A program made the position numbers and the translations under genes. From Rhodococcus aetherivorans (GTDB taxonomy: Bacteria; Actinomycetota; Actinomycetes; Mycobacteriales; Mycobacteriaceae), in the NCBI RefSeq assembly GCF_011058165.1, contig NZ_JAALEG010000001.1, positions 1-64,000 of the forward strand: a stretch of 64,000 nucleotides of DNA, read 5' to 3'. This document shows positions 43,009 to 49,921 of this stretch, one piece after another (the first letter of the stretch is position 1; each line of letters opens with the position of its first letter). A model generated the notes under the pieces. It was not told the DNA's origin. It ran no database searches and saw nothing but the letters and a program-made list of their open reading frames with translations.

Positions 43009-44196
43009 GTGCTGCGCTGGATAACTGCTGGAGAGTCCCATGGTCCCGCCCTCGTCGCGATGCTCGAGGGGATGGTCGCCGGCGTCGAGGTGACGTCGAG
43101 CGACATCTCGGAGCAGCTGGCGCGGCGCCGCCTCGGCTACGGCCGCGGCGCGCGCATGAAATTCGAGGCCGACAAGGTCACCATCCTCGGCGGCGTCCGG
43201 CACGGCCACACCCTCGGCGGCCCGGTGGCCATCGAGATCGGCAACACCGAGTGGCCCAAGTGGGAGACCATCATGTCCGCCGACCCGGTGGACGCCGAAC
43301 TGCTCGCCGGGCAGGCCCGCAACGCGCCGCTGACCCGTCCGCGACCCGGCCACGCCGACTACTCCGGCATGCTCAAGTACGGCTTCGACGACGCCCGGCC
43401 CGTTCTCGAGCGCGCCAGCGCCCGGGAGACTGCGGCCCGCGTCGCCGCCGGCACCGTGGCCCGCAACTTCCTGCGCCAGGTGTTCGGCGCCGAGGTCGTC
43501 TCGCATGTGATCTCCATCGGCGCGTCCGAACCCTACGTGGGGGTGGAGCCGACCGGCGCCGACCTCGCCGCCATCGACGCCAGCCCGGTGCGGGCCTTCG
43601 ACAAGTCGGCCGAGGAGTCGATGATCGCCGAGATCGAGGCCGCCAAGCGCGACGGTGACACCCTCGGCGGTGTCGTCGAGGTCGTGGTGCACGGCTTGCC
43701 CGTCGGTCTCGGCTCGTTCATCAGCGGTGCCGACCGGCTCGACGCCCGGCTCGCCGCGGCCCTCATGGGCATCCAGGCCATCAAGGGCGTCGAGGTCGGC
43801 GACGGCTTCGAGACCGCCCGCCGCCGCGGCAGCGTCGCCCACGACGAGATGCGGCCCGGCCCCGACGGCGTGCTCCGCTCGACCAACCGGGCCGGCGGCC
43901 TCGAGGGCGGCATGACCAACGGCGAGGCGCTGCGGGTGCGGGCCGCGATGAAGCCCATCTCCACGGTGCCGCGCGCCCTCGCCACCGTCGACATGTCGTC
44001 CGGCGAGGAGGCCGTCGCGATCCACCAGCGCTCCGACGTGTGCGCCGTGCCCGCGGCCGGCGTCGTGGCCGAGGCGATGGTGGCGCTCGTCGTGGCGCAG
44101 GCCGCGCTCGAGAAGTTCGGGGGCGACTCGATCGACGAGACCCGCACCAACGTCCGCAACTACCTCGAGGCCGTCGCGGCCCGGGTGCCACGGTGA
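43009..44196 (+). CDS. aroC: Chorismate synthase
   Basis: A 395-residue FMN-dependent enzyme making chorismate from EPSP, the last common step of aromatic amino acid synthesis. [20 protein letters not shown] is the N-terminal signature, and further conserved blocks are [38 protein letters not shown] with nearby [12 protein letters not shown], and [22 protein letters not shown]. The start is GTG at 43009, with GGAAGG eight bases upstream, giving the usual MLRWITAGE opening. It is followed by aroK after four bases. Confidence 0.96.
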
Positions 44197-45891
<1,695 letters not shown>

Positions 45892-45908
45892 TCCGCTGAG
45901 TCCCCTCG

Positions 45909-45951
45909 ACGGGCCGGCGCACCGAAGGGTGCGCCGGCCCGTTCCCTTTTT
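45909..45951 (+). terminator. Rho-independent terminator closing the aro operon
   Basis: A 15-bp perfect stem, 45909-45923 with 45928-45942, a four-base loop GAAG, then a TCCCTTTTT tract to 45951. Confidence 0.95.
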
Positions 45952-46112
45952 CCGGGATCCCCTCGGCTTACTCGGCCCCGAGGTAATTCGAACTGGACGG
46001 AATCAAAGAATTTTCCGAATCGAAGGTCGCGGCCCCACCGAACGGCCGACCGCAGCCACGAAAATGAAAGACTTTTCGCCGCAACGTGTTCGGATCCGCC
46101 CTCGGCTCTTCG

Positions 46113-46142
46113 TTGATTTCCGGGTGGTACCGGCCGTACGAT
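46113..46142 (+). promoter_or_regulatory. Promoter of the ThrRS-paralogue leader
   Basis: TTGATT (46113-46118) and TACGAT (46137-46142) are separated by 18 bases, a good sigma-70/SigA-type match. The leader peptide ATG at 46150 is seven bases after the -10 box, so transcription should begin at or next to this ATG. Confidence 0.55.
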
Positions 46143-46149
46143 TCCCGTC

Positions 46150-46215
46150 ATGATGAACGCTCAGCAGGTCACGACGACGCCGGATGCCTTCCGGCGCCGC
46201 GTCGCTCACTGCTGA
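46150..46215 (+). CDS. Threonine-codon leader peptide (21 residues)
   Basis: A 21-codon frame starts with two adjacent ATGs and contains three consecutive threonine codons ACG ACG ACG (46171-46179) before a Pro and an Arg-rich end, with TGA at 46213-46215. It has no Shine-Dalgarno sequence but begins right after a promoter, so it would be translated from a leaderless message. A six-pair hairpin CGCCGG/CCGGCG (46178-46183 with 46191-46196) starts within the third Thr codon. It lies 96 bases before a threonyl-tRNA synthetase-like gene. A run of codons for the amino acid handled by the downstream enzyme is the classic sign of ribosome-mediated attenuation; this reading is inferred. Confidence 0.6.
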   Translation: MMNAQQVTTTPDAFRRRVAHC

Positions 46216-46226
46216 CCCACCACGCG

Positions 46227-46253
46227 AGCCCCGGGAGTCGACGTCCCGGGGCT
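46227..46253 (+). terminator. Hairpin between Thr leader peptide and ThrRS-like gene (candidate attenuator)
   Basis: AGCCCCGGGA (46227-46236) pairs perfectly with TCCCGGGGCT (46244-46253) over a seven-base loop. It starts 11 bases after the leader stop. The following tract is only TTCG, so it may act as an intrinsic terminator of weak type, a pause site or a Rho-dependent element. A further stem CTCTCG/CGAGAG (46280-46285, 46292-46297) sits just before the synthetase ribosome site. Confidence 0.55.
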
Positions 46254-46311
46254 TTCGTCGTGTTCGGGCACGTCGCTTCCTCTCGCCGACACGAGAGTCG
46301 AGGAACGGATC

Positions 46312-47538
46312 ATGAACGGTGCAGATCACCGAGTGCTCGGTCGCGAACTCGAAATGTTCGCCACCGCACCGATAGTGGGTGCGGGCCTTCCGCTGTGGCT
46401 GCCGGACGGTGCGGTGATCCGTGCCGAACTCGAGGCCTTCGCCGCCGAGGTGGCGGCCGAAACCGGCTGTCGCCGCGTCTACACCCCGGTGCTCGCCAAG
46501 AAGGAATTGTTCGTCCGGTCCGGCCACTGGTCCAAATTCGCCGACGACATGTTCCCCGAGATGCGGGTCGGAGGCGAGAGTTTCGTTCTCCGGCCCGCCA
46601 ATTGCCCCCACCACGCCCAGATCTTCGCCTCGCGGGGCCGCAGTTACCGCGACCTGCCGATCCGCCTGTCGGAGCTGGGATCGATGTTCCGCAGCGAACT
46701 GTCCGGCGTGCTCGCCGGCCTGAGCCGGGTCCGGCAGATCAGTCTCGACGACGCGCACGTGTTCTGCGCGCCCGAACAGGTCGGCGCGGAGGTGGAACTC
46801 GCGCTGAGTGCGATCGAGCGCTGCTACGGGGTCCTCGGGCTCGACGACCGGCGTTACCGCCTGTCCCTGGGTGACGCCGGCGGGCGGTATCTCGGCACCG
46901 GCGAGCAGTGGGCGCACGCCCAGGATCAACTGCGCGGAGCGCTCGAACGGCGCGGGCTGGACTTCTTCGAAGCCGAAGGGGAGGCCGCGTTCTACGGTCC
47001 GAAGATCGACATCCAGGTCGCCGGCGCGCACGGGCGCGAGGAGACCGTGTCCACCGTCCAGCTCGACTTCACTCAGCCCGAGCGCTTCGGCCTCGAATAC
47101 ACCGGCGAGGACGGGCGCAGGCATCGGCCCGCGATGATCCACCGGGGTGTGCTCGGGTCGATGGAGCGGCTGATCGCGATGCTCGTCGAACGCTTCGAAG
47201 GGCGCATGCCGCCCTGGCTGTCGCCCCGCCAGGTGGCGGTCCTGCCCGTCGGGGACGGCCACGGCGACGGGGCCGGCAGGCTGCGGGACAGGTTGGTGGC
47301 CGAGGGGATTCGCGTCGACGTGCTCGCCGGGGGTTCGTTGGGCAGCCGTATCCGGGCCGCGCGCCTGCACCGCGACCCGTACATCGCGATCGTCGGCGAT
47401 GAGGAACTCGCGGACGAGACCGTCAGCGCACTGGTGCCGCAGTCGGGGCAGCGGGCGTGCCTCGGGCGCGAGCAGTTCGTGCAACGGGTGCGGGCCGACG
47501 TCCGGGGCCGGGTCCTGCGTCCGTCCGCGCTGCCGTGA
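46312..47538 (+). CDS. Truncated threonyl-tRNA synthetase paralogue (no TGS or editing domain)
   Basis: A 408-residue protein covering only the catalytic and anticodon-binding domains of ThrRS. It begins DHRVLGRELEMF, which aligns with the start of the catalytic core, so the roughly 240-residue TGS and editing region is missing. The zinc ligands are intact: C98 (NCPHHAQIF), H149 (DDAHVFC) and H277 (MIHRGVLGSMERL). AFYGPKIDIQV and VQLDFTQPERFGLEYTGEDG are typical; the anticodon domain starts at WLSPRQVAVLPV. The usual CPGH is CPHH. GAGGAA precedes the ATG. It might be a stress- or inhibitor-induced backup ThrRS (compare resistance-type ThrRS genes), or charge a carrier instead of tRNA. The upstream Thr leader suggests control by Thr-tRNA supply. 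Confidence 0.85.
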   Translation: MNGADHRVLGRELEMFATAPIVGAGLPLWLPDGAVIRAELEAFAAEVAAETGCRRVYTPVLAKKELFVRSGHWSKFADDMFPEMRVGGESFVLRPANCPHHAQIFASRGRSYRDLPIRLSELGSMFRSELSGVLAGLSRVRQISLDDAHVFCAPEQVGAEVELALSAIERCYGVLGLDDRRYRLSLGDAGGRYLGTGEQWAHAQDQLRGALERRGLDFFEAEGEAAFYGPKIDIQVAGAHGREETVSTVQLDFTQPERFGLEYTGEDGRRHRPAMIHRGVLGSMERLIAMLVERFEGRMPPWLSPRQVAVLPVGDGHGDGAGRLRDRLVAEGIRVDVLAGGSLGSRIRAARLHRDPYIAIVGDEELADETVSALVPQSGQRACLGREQFVQRVRADVRGRVLRPSALP

Positions 47539-47551
47539 ACGCCCCCTCGTG

Positions 47552-47578
47552 GACGCCGGCCGAGGGGGAGCCGGCGTC
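47552..47578. terminator. Hairpin between convergent genes
   Basis: GACGCCGGC (47552-47560) pairs with GCCGGCGTC (47570-47578) over a nine-base loop, without a T-run. It lies in the 45-base gap between the ThrRS paralogue and the P-type ATPase gene and may stop transcription from both sides. Confidence 0.55.
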
Positions 47579-47583
47579 TCGGG

Positions 47584-49544
47584 TCATGACCGGGTTCCGG
47601 CGATCGGCTCGGCCGCCGTCGGCGCTGGTCGTGCCGTCGCAGTCGGGCTCCGAGCGCGCCCGGCCCGGACTCCGTTGGCGATCACGACGATCTCGGCGAC
47701 CTCGTGGACGAGGACGACCGCGGCCAGGCCGAGGACTCCGAACAGGGCGAGTGGCATCAGAACGGTGATGATCGCCAGGGACAGTCCGACGTTCTGCAGC
47801 ATGATCGTCCGCGACCGTCGAGCGTGGCGGAGCGCTCGGGGCAGGTGCCGCAGGTCCTCGCCCATCAGGGCGACGTCGGCGGTGTCGATGGCGACGTCGG
47901 AGCCCATCGCGCCCATCGCGATGCCGAGGTCGGCGGCCGCGAGCGCAGGGGCGTCGTTGACCCCGTCGCCGACCATCGCGGTCGGCCGTGTGGCGCGCAG
48001 GGTCTCGACGAGACGGGCCTTGTCCTCGGGGCGCAGGTCGGCGTGCACCTCGTCGATACCGGCGTCGGCGGCCAGGGCTCGGGCGGTGCGGTCGTGGTCG
48101 CCGGTGAGCATCGCGACGGTGTAGCCGTCACGGCGCAGCCCGGCGACCACCTCGCGCGCTTCCGCGCGGAGCTCGTCGCGGACGGCGACCGCCCCGATCG
48201 CGGCGCCTTCGCGTTCGACGAGGACCGCGGTGGCCCCGGCGTGCTGCATCCGCTCGATGTCCGCGGCGAGCGGACCGGCGTCGATCCAGCCGGGCCGGCC
48301 CAGCCGGACAGGAGCGCCGGCGATGCGGCCGGTCAGGCCGGCACCGGGGACCGCGTCCACCTGTTCGGCCGGCACGTAGTCGTCGACGGCGGCGAGAATC
48401 GCCGGGGCGAGGGGGTGTTCGCTGCGGGCCTCCAGAGCGGCGGCCACGGCGAGAACGTCGTGGGGGGTCGTTCCCTCCGCGGTGGCGACGTCGAGCACGG
48501 CGGGCCGGTTCCGGGTGAGGGTGCCGGTCTTGTCCAACGCGATGCCGCGGATGCGGCCGAGAGCCTCGAGGGCGGCGCCGCCCTTGACCAGGACGCCGAA
48601 CCTGGATGCGGCGCCGACCGCGGCGACGACCGTGACCGGGATCGCGATCGCCAGCGCGCACGGCGACGCGGCGACCAGCACCACCAGGGCGCGTTCGATC
48701 CACACGCGCGGATCCCCGGCCAGGCTGCCGACGACGGCGATGGCCGCGGCCGCGACCATCACGGCCGGGACGAGTGGGGTGGCGATCCTGTCGGCCAGGC
48801 GTTGCGCGTCGCCCTTGCGGGACTGCTCGGCCTCGACGATCCGCACGATCCTGGCCAGCGAGTTGTCCTGCGCGCCGGCGGCGACCTCGACCTCGAGGAC
48901 ACCGGTGCCGTTGATCGACCCGGCGAACACCTCGTCGCCCGGACCGGCCTCGACGGGCATCGATTCCCCGGTGACGGCGGAGGTGTCCAGGGCGGTGCGC
49001 CCGGATCGGACGATCCCGTCGGTGGCGATCCGCTCCCCGGGTTTGACGATCATGACCTCGCCGAGCGCGAGGTCGGCAGGCGGAACGGTCTGCTCGCGAC
49101 CGTCGCGCAGCACCGTGGCGGTGTCCGGGACCAGGGACAGCAGTGCGCGCAGACCACGGCGGGTGCGGGTGACGGCGTACTCCTCGAGTCCCTCGCTGAT
49201 CGCGAACAGGAACGCGAGCATCGCGGCCTCGCCGACCTCACCGAGCAGCACCGCGCCGAGGGCCGCGATCGTCATCAGGGTCCCGACGCCGATCCCGCCC
49301 CTGACCAGGCGTTCGAGCGTGGCGGGGACGAAGGTGTAGCCGGCGACGATCAAGGCCACCGCCTCGAGTCCCACACCGAGAGCGTCGGGTCCGCCGCCGA
49401 CACGGACGATCAGGGCCGCCACCAGCAGGACGCCCGCGGCGCGGCCGCCCGGATCTCCGTGATCTGCCACAACTTCTCGGGCGCGTCCTCGTCCTCGCCG
49501 GGGAGGCGGGGTTCGGCGTGGCCGCAACCGCAGGCGTCGCTCAC
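47584..49544 (-). CDS. Heavy-metal P1B-type ATPase, apparently frameshifted near its N-terminus
   Basis: A metal efflux pump with the full core in one frame: actuator TGES (TSAVTGESMPVE), ion-site SPC in AASPCALAIAIP, phosphorylation DKTGTLT, MLTGDHDRTARALA, and GDGVNDAPAL hinge, ending in HEVAEIVVIANGVRAGR. The natural start seems to be GTG at 49544, overlapping the regulator stop (GTGA), because that frame reads DACGCGHAEPRL and EKLWQITEIR, the usual Cys/His N-terminus of actinobacterial CadA-like pumps. That frame then hits a stop at 49412, while the core continues in the next frame from about AAGVLLVAALIV. A one-step shift near 49430-49465 in a G/C run is needed, so this is either an inactivating mutation, a sequencing error or recoding. 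An internal GTG could start a shorter pump. Confidence 0.8.
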
Positions 49545-49921
49545 GACGCGCTCCCGGTGCCGGTGCCGTAGTTCGGGCACAACGCGACCGCGTTCCCGGT
49601 CGCGGCCAGCAACGTCTCGGCCGAGGCGAGCAGATCCATCAACTCGGGTCGGGTCAGCGAGTAGAACACCTGCCGGCCCTGGGGGCGGCCCTCGACGAGG
49701 TTGCAGTCCCGCAGGCACGCCATGTGCGCAGAGACCGTCGACTGCGCCAACCGCAGCTCACCGACGAGGTCCGCCACCCGCGCCTCACCCTCGGCGAGCC
49801 GTCGCACGATCGCCAATCGGGTGCCGTCCGAGAGGCTGTGGAACAGCGCCACCGCGGCGTCGAGGTCCGACACCGGCCCGGTCGACGTCCGGACCGCACC
49901 ACCGTCGCGATTGATCGTCAT
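49541..49921 (-). CDS. cmtR: CmtR-like ArsR-family metal sensor
   Basis: A 126-residue ArsR/SmtB repressor. The helix-turn-helix is VADLVGELRLAQSTVSAHMACLRDCNLV with the wing GRQVFYSLT. The pair of cysteines in CLRDC plus a third cysteine in the tail (ALCPNYG) reproduces the Cys57/Cys61/Cys102 Cd(II)/Pb(II) site of M. tuberculosis CmtR. It is coupled by a four-base GTGA overlap to the P-type ATPase gene, which it should derepress in cadmium or lead. The ATG at 49921 has no ribosome site, but a TATCAT box lies six bases upstream, so the message is probably leaderless and the operator likely overlaps it. Confidence 0.87.
   Translation of the reverse strand: MTINRDGGAVRTSTGPVSDLDAAVALFHSLSDGTRLAIVRRLAEGEARVADLVGELRLAQSTVSAHMACLRDCNLVEGRPQGRQVFYSLTRPELMDLLASAETLLAATGNAVALCPNYGTGTGSAS

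Follow-up and report, generated by a model that had tools for sequence, protein, structure and literature searches.

The window analysed here is a stretch of 64,000 nucleotides of Rhodococcus aetherivorans (assembly GCF_011058165.1, contig NZ_JAALEG010000001.1, positions 1 to 64,000), from a host genome of 6.43 Mb; on its forward strand it carries a short threonyl-tRNA synthetase (ThrRS) gene, here called short thrS, behind a leader peptide whose threonine codon the gene itself hardly uses. The locus opens with a promoter-like TTGATT-N18-TACGAT (46113–46142, with the two hexamers at 46113–46118 and 46137–46142), and seven nucleotides further on the ATG at 46150 starts a 21-codon frame (46150–46215) that encodes the thrL-like peptide MMNAQQVTTTPDAFRRRVAHC and includes three successive ACG codons (46171–46179), the putative sensor. 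Transcription would begin at or beside this ATG, that is, without a 5′ leader. A first hairpin, A:B, begins at the third Thr codon and pairs CGCCGG (46178–46183) with CCGGCG (46191–46196) in local folds. An earlier note, made from the letters alone, had described the promoter, the frame with its three ACG codons and this hairpin, and all are found as claimed; the perfect 10-bp second hairpin that it placed at 46227–46253 also exists, as the core of an 11-bp stem (46226–46254; one pair is G-U) that closes a 7-nt loop and is followed by TCGTCGTG, a weak U tract. The arms of this terminator-like hairpin are named C and D. A candidate kinetic antiterminator, B:C, would join CUUCCGG (46188–46194) to CCGGGAG (46231–46237) and spans 46188–46237. 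Further downstream, segment E (46266–46280) has a sequence complementary to 46233–46247, which make up the loop and inner arm of the terminator, and segment F contains the Shine–Dalgarno (SD) sequence GAGGAA (46300–46305), over which E closes a putative anti-SD hairpin (E:F, 46276–46305); the window fold pairs CUUC (46276–46279) with GAGG (46300–46303) and CUCUCG (46280–46285) with CGAGAG (46292–46297).

The synthetase gene follows at 46312–47538. Its 408-residue product matches only tRNA-synt_2b and HGTP_anticodon in Pfam and scores 437.2 bits against TIGR00418 (cut-off, 383.65), so that it consists of the core and anticodon domains; the N-terminal TGS and editing domains of usual bacterial ThrRS are not present. 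It is not the sole ThrRS of its host. The earlier note had advised a look for a full-length thrS elsewhere; a 693-aa ThrRS with a tRNA_SAD domain lies on another contig of the same genome (C205; 42% identical over the core), and all 38 family genomes searched with this protein have a full-length match, at E values up to 1e-150 (in one genome, G215, as two pieces on two contigs).

Orthologues of the short gene occur in 2 of 18 genomes of the genus (own genome counted), in 39 of 401 genomes of the family, representing 5 of its 31 genera, and, from 48% identity upwards and with the host and one partial match included, in no fewer than 62 of the 394 class genomes, and they bear six family labels (f1, f2 and f19–f22); the closest named relative of the short protein is that of R. 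ruber NBRC 15591, at 90% identity. From the family search 39 loci were taken and from the class search 60, giving 99; L024 was dropped, its match beginning inside the gene, and seven named Rhodococcus loci were not added, their genera having already been counted and several of the loci evidently being contigs already in the set. Three of the 99 stand outside the counts of 96 given below, namely L104 and L120, where the contig ends before the leader, and L122, where the start of the synthetase is broken. At L122 (genome G483) a tandem repeat at that start disrupts the frame and the leader looks intact; it is possibly a decaying copy. The clade is patchy and sometimes plasmid-borne: five plasmid copies were found, in Mycobacterium intracellulare (L210:3980-5260), Streptomyces (two), Kitasatospora and Nonomuraea (the latter four large-plasmid copies being L211–L213 and L216), and all five have the leader and an open reading frame (ORF) without ACG. 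As the short ThrRS and its ACG leader reside on large plasmids of several actinomycetes, they can probably move between species. A PADLOC run gave no match.

The leader is not a chance pattern, because a scan for any codon followed by AC., AC. and CC., with an in-frame stop within 25 codons, matches 96 of the 99 orthologue loci (L053 and L054 give two matches each, and the one closer to the gene was used). Together with L122, read by eye, a leader precedes the short gene at 97 of the 97 loci with enough upstream DNA. The measured leaders read xxx-ACG-ACG-CCG in 96 of 96 cases, and at the first Thr position the codon is ACG in 87, ACC in 6, ACT in 1 and one for Ala or Ile in 2. A leader with cognate codons kept in relatives, as expected of a ribosome-mediated attenuator, is seen in 96 of 96 measured loci and, by eye, in the 97th; the earlier note had staked its reading on an alignment in which Thr codons and hairpins are conserved among relatives, and both are. 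Of 50 full-length thrS genes, just 2 are preceded by a small frame containing TTT or TTxT. Leaderless transcription of the leader can be inferred from a TANNNT element that precedes the leader start in all 96 loci, at a distance of 7 nt in 78 of them, 6 nt in 16 and 8 nt in 2, a tally that comes from a script taking the best of the candidate starts, with no shuffle control; the start point that the earlier note had placed beside the leader ATG fits this spacing. Five places in the host genome match the pattern ACGACGCCGG-N4-12-CCGGCG, and none match its reversed control; the four matches to this leader-hairpin pattern besides the leader itself lie at L205, L207, L208 and L209. Rfam covariance models detect nothing in the leader, neither a known leader family nor a T-box, and give three chance-level matches elsewhere within 44000–49000.

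The gene behind this leader is nearly free of the codon that the leader repeats. Across the 96 short genes, which share descent and are not independent trials (identity to P0001 goes down to 48%), ACG accounts for 16 of 938 Thr codons, as against 1115 of 3964 (28%) in 183 window or flanking genes, a background drawn with a simple GC-by-position script from fewer genomes than the 96 and with ThrRS genes excluded. ACG is absent altogether from 86 of the 96 short genes and from 2 of 171 background genes with at least eight Thr codons. The depletion also holds against the full-length enzyme of the same genomes: in 43 pairs (8 of 51 full-length genes were excluded because the core motif was not found) the count is 15 of 485 in the short genes versus 153 of 854 in the full-length core, and in the host of the window it is 0 of 9 versus 12 of 35 for the whole full-length thrS. 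In the same paired comparison, short genes and full-length cores use G-ending codons of Ala, Pro, Val, Ser and Leu about equally often, and those of Gly and Arg are commoner in the short genes. Threonine itself is scarce too, with a mean content of 2.8% in the short enzymes versus 4.8% in the full-length cores, and in 41 of the 43 pairs the short enzyme falls below its full-length partner (Wilcoxon, 5e-7); the 102 background genes that encode 300 aa or more all lie above 2.8%.

With ARAGORN, applied to 30 loci from the 52 tRNA matches of the host genome and to the pattern loci, tRNAThr species with the anticodons CGU, UGU and GGU are all found. By standard wobble rules, ACG is read by the CGU and UGU species, and ACC and ACU are read by the GGU species. 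Since ACG is decoded by the former two and the ORF is nearly without ACG, the leader reports on tRNAs that the synthetase ORF hardly needs. The pairing of an ACG leader with an ACG-free enzyme gene suggests a reserve enzyme whose synthesis could continue when tRNA is no longer loaded with threonine.

The short enzymes leave a set of synthetase residues unchanged and depart from the full-length enzymes at sites that contact an inhibitor. In E. coli numbering, the zinc ligands C334, H385 and H511, which the earlier note had reported as intact in a ThrRS-like gene devoid of TGS and editing domains, are kept in all 96, as are R363, D383, Y462, K465 and R520; Q484 is kept in 95. In all 96 short enzymes M332 has given way to Ser, Ala or Gly, and it is changed in none of 51 full-length ones; L489 is Gln or Lys in 95 of 96 and changed in 4 of 51 full-length enzymes; H309, the other borrelidin site, and G463, the obafluorin-resistance site, are unchanged in 96 of 96. 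Mutation of L489 is reported to raise the borrelidin Ki of E. coli ThrRS, and human M411 and L567 to be altered in borrelidin-resistant archaeal enzymes (PMC4389257); human M411 corresponds to E. coli M332 by the numbering of the present analysis. Because M332 and L489 are borrelidin-contact sites, their replacement suggests that the short enzyme tolerates a borrelidin-like inhibitor. The best match in the PDB is S. aureus ThrRS (1.9e-113), with E. coli entries near 1e-77, and a quick tree, which includes just two Bacilli rows and in which E. coli and Trichormus are flagged as long branches, places 32 short enzymes and the M. intracellulare copy on one branch beside the two Bacilli and away from 16 actinomycete full-length sequences. 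The short ThrRS is therefore likely an old acquisition of Bacilli-like origin. A recent duplication of the host thrS is rejected on the tree and on the closer PDB match to S. aureus than to E. coli, and the earlier description of the enzyme as a domain-stripped paralogue of the host gene gives way to a likely placement near Bacilli ThrRS. The Saccharibacteria ThrRS (L011–L021 and L023) form the other group in the genome scan, 41–44% identical; in one of the two rows checked, the residue aligned with E. coli L489 is also Gln.

Segments B, C, D, E and F recur downstream of the leader codons in relatives, and we compared the predicted duplex energies of own pairs with those of pairs swapped between loci in two sets, 68 loci with a PAR-type leader tail and 23 Rhodococcus-type loci that include the window (L063, L064, L068, L095 and L108 belong to neither). 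For the terminator arm and loop against E, own pairs in the PAR-tail set average −18.35 versus −15.60 kcal/mol for swapped ones (53 distinct pairs; 0 of 2000 permutations as low), and the difference persists when swaps are confined within families (58 distinct pairs; 0 of 5000); in the Rhodococcus-type set the values are −15.40 versus −12.84 kcal/mol (20 distinct pairs; 0 of 5000), and the window's own duplex, 46233–46247 with 46266–46280, reaches −22.0 kcal/mol. For E:F in the PAR-tail set, own pairs average −13.81 versus −12.15 kcal/mol (65 distinct pairs; 0 of 2000), again with 0 of 5000 as low within families. That one downstream segment covaries with both the terminator loop and the SD region suggests a joint switch. 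The C:D stem is GC-rich and near-perfect in most of the 96 loci, with T-rich tails at some Rhodococcus and Nocardia-like loci. Two loci from another family, L063 and L064 (62% and 57% identity with the window protein), retain a TTTP leader and have no simple terminator; a longer ACCCACGA/TCGTGGGT stem stands in its place.

Within the window, short thrS stands alone. Convergent to it on the reverse strand are a heavy-metal P-type ATPase of the ZntA type (47584–49527) and, beside that, an ArsR/SmtB regulator (49541–49921), both probably unrelated to it. Because these neighbours adjoin the gene, Zur control as in Anabaena thrS2 was considered and rejected: the promoter alignment, inspected by eye and with no Zur-box scan, contains no palindrome common to all clades, and the neighbour is convergent.

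Taken together, we consider it probable that short thrS encodes an accessory ThrRS for emergencies, whose synthesis is under ribosome-mediated control by charged tRNAThr. When ACG-reading threonyl-tRNA drops, whether through threonine starvation or a ThrRS inhibitor, a ribosome would stall on the leader ACG codons and cover segment A; B would then be free to pair with C while RNA polymerase is still in the leader, such that the terminator C:D would fail to nucleate, and E could subsequently take the C arm and loop, releasing the SD sequence. With ample threonyl-tRNA, C:D would form and transcription would halt, and in any read-through RNA E:F would partly close the SD sequence. To be translated, the ORF would rely mainly on the GGU isoacceptor, through ACC and ACU, and its translation could go on while ACG decoding fails. 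The short enzyme would charge tRNAThr without editing of its own, and editing of Ser-tRNAThr could be supplied in trans by the resident full-length ThrRS. The enzyme thus appears fitted, at the leader, codon and amino-acid levels, for synthesis when threonyl-tRNA fails, a function that we infer from sequence. The earlier suggestion of an emergency or inhibitor-resistant ThrRS gains indirect support from the ACG avoidance, the low threonine content and the changes at borrelidin contacts. More tentatively, and with less than even confidence, we entertain a gene split by isoacceptor, in which the leader would sense the ACG-reading tRNAThr and the ORF would use the ACC/ACU-reading one, and in which one RNA arm would move from the terminator to an anti-anti-SD role; if so, a single stalling event would switch on transcription and translation together. 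A preference of the short enzyme itself for the GGU isoacceptor is even conceivable, and would sustain a restricted decoding while the housekeeping ThrRS is blocked.

Several observations weigh against an emergency ThrRS switched by attenuation in this way, and most of them concern the RNA. The preference of B for its own C is modest (−15.78 versus −15.11 kcal/mol for swapped pairs; 60 distinct pairs, 12 of 5000 permutations as low), and the U tract after C:D is weak or missing at many loci. In equilibrium folding with the ribosome represented by five masks, the terminator has a probability of 1.00 under every mask in five of five sequences, and SD accessibility barely shifts from mask to mask: the unpaired probability is 0.43–0.44 for the window (L001), where the site is merely half closed, 0.04–0.09 for L028, 0.32–0.37 for L066, 0.31–0.39 for L118 and 0.19 for L054. 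This folding supports neither a stable antiterminator nor an SD release at equilibrium, so that antitermination and SD release must be kinetic if they are real. The classical attenuation layout proposed in the earlier note is borne out in its cognate-codon sensor, which is conserved, and is less clear in its terminator, a recurring hairpin whose U tract is weak at many loci, and in the alternative pairing; the antiterminator that its reader could not draw can now be drawn as B:C, a weak pairing that loses at equilibrium. Control could instead be translational only, with C:D deciding whether E closes the SD sequence rather than terminating, as in erm-type translational attenuation. The weak U tracts speak for this, as do the better covariation of E:F and of arm/loop:E than of B:C and the published remark that termination at S. 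lividans thrL is unclear (PMC8079986); we nevertheless rate it as rather unlikely, given a GC-rich, near-perfect C:D in most of the 96 loci and the T-rich tails of some Rhodococcus and Nocardia-like ones. A further point concerns the codons themselves. Thr2, Thr3 and the Pro codon of the leader are invariant in the 96 loci down to their third positions, and the G of both the second and the third Thr codons is paired in six of six local folds, for which reason part of the ACG constraint may lie on the RNA and not on the codon. Taken to its end, this would mean that the need of the RNA for ACGACGCCGG is all that preserves the ACG runs and that the ORF avoids ACG for some unrelated reason, and the swap of the first Thr for Ala or Ile in 2 of 96 leaders points the same way. 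Such a coincidence strikes us as improbable: the first Thr codon is not part of the minimal A:B stem and yet remains ACG in 87 leaders and another Thr codon in 7, no four-fold box other than that of Thr is depleted of its G-ending codon in the ORF, and the full-length thrS of the same genomes does use ACG. Lastly, Q381L and Q479T, considered as marks peculiar to the short clade, are both shared with the two Bacilli ThrRS compared and were set aside.

The natural signal may also differ from the one assumed above. Short ThrRS could be mainly an antibiotic-stress or self-protection gene, switched through WhiB7/WblC or by stalling under an inhibitor, with threonine starvation not its natural cue. 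Of the 96 promoters, 23 have GAAAWY, the WblC box (PMC7157823), starting 32–34 nt ahead of the −10 box (500 shuffles gave a mean of 0.15 and at most 2), thrS2, presumably the short form, is listed among the WblC-activated genes of S. coelicolor (PMC7157823), and the changes at borrelidin sites and the patchy, partly plasmid-borne spread fit as well; in another report, SCO3778 is named a threonyl-tRNA synthetase with a sigma-E site under ethanol stress (PMC10771440). However, the boxes belong to 21 of 57 class loci and to 2 of the 16 family loci outside the Rhodococcus type, none being found in the 23 Rhodococcus-type promoters, the window's among them, and such a role would be compatible with an emergency ThrRS rather than exclusive of it; we regard it as possible without preferring it. 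That the protein activates threonine for a non-tRNA acceptor or a biosynthetic pathway, as the earlier note had also contemplated, finds no support and seems very improbable. The loss of the N-terminal domains and the variation at some anticodon-domain positions could be read that way, but the anticodon domain is retained, the gene is alone in the window, the leader is tied to Thr codons, and no common pathway neighbours are apparent by eye around four annotated plasmid copies, a comparison that was not systematic.

An emergency ThrRS under ribosome-mediated control has its nearest known counterpart in Streptomyces lividans TK24, where the leader peptide thrL, MKRVRPFLETTPGFVPAR, is leaderless by RNA sequencing and precedes the thrS gene SLIV_19410 (PMC8079986). 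Like the PAR-tail leaders here, it is a leaderless Thr leader peptide ahead of a ThrRS gene; it has two Thr and is reported as one of eight attenuators (PMC8079986). In our view it probably belongs to the same leader family, because it resembles leaders such as that of L092, MKRAQPFLTTTPDSVPAR; judged by its leader, SLIV_19410 would be the short form. The available portion of that account makes no mention of domain loss, clade-wide conservation, the ACG partition or SD control, and the literature listed, which includes few subscription journals and is in part available only as excerpts, holds nothing on domain loss, ACG partition or an SD layer for this gene. What is known thus appears to be the Streptomyces leader, as a prediction with a mapped start, and the remainder appears to be new. 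The finding suggests that this ThrRS is mobile and possibly inhibitor-tolerant, and a leader fusion could serve to report on its switch.

Second or altered ThrRS are known from other settings. In Anabaena, a stress ThrRS, T2, likewise stands beside the full editing enzyme T1; T2, however, keeps its editing domain, with an insertion, and is regulated by Zur, whereas here the domain is gone and control would be by leader peptide (PMC4787780). ObaO and the ThrRS of the borrelidin producer are likewise extra or altered enzymes with changes at inhibitor sites (PMC11252418, PMC4389257). ObaO is described as changed at G463 (PMC11252418), which the short enzymes keep while changing M332 and L489, and for them resistance is a prediction.

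As for regulation, the locus shares with classical attenuation, exemplified by E. coli trp, his and thr and by actinobacterial trp, leuS and ilvB (PMC1262725), a cognate-codon leader, alternative hairpins and a terminator-like stem; unlike it, a possible second layer here would couple the decision to the SD sequence. The 2005 survey of actinobacteria reports no conserved RNA structure for threonine genes (PMC1262725). Layered RNA control of this kind would be of interest in GC-rich bacteria, whose weak U tracts can hide classical attenuation from view. The E. coli thr leader is reported to use ACC codons (PMC1183508), whereas the leader here uses ACG. According to selective-charging theory for E. 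coli leaders, sensing codons are those whose tRNA empties first (PMC1183508), and modelling in E. coli describes leaders as sensitive and the structural genes behind them as robust (PMC3783181). Short thrS and its leader offer a natural test of the selective-charging idea, carried by distant actinomycetes, in which the sensor codon is near absent from the controlled gene.

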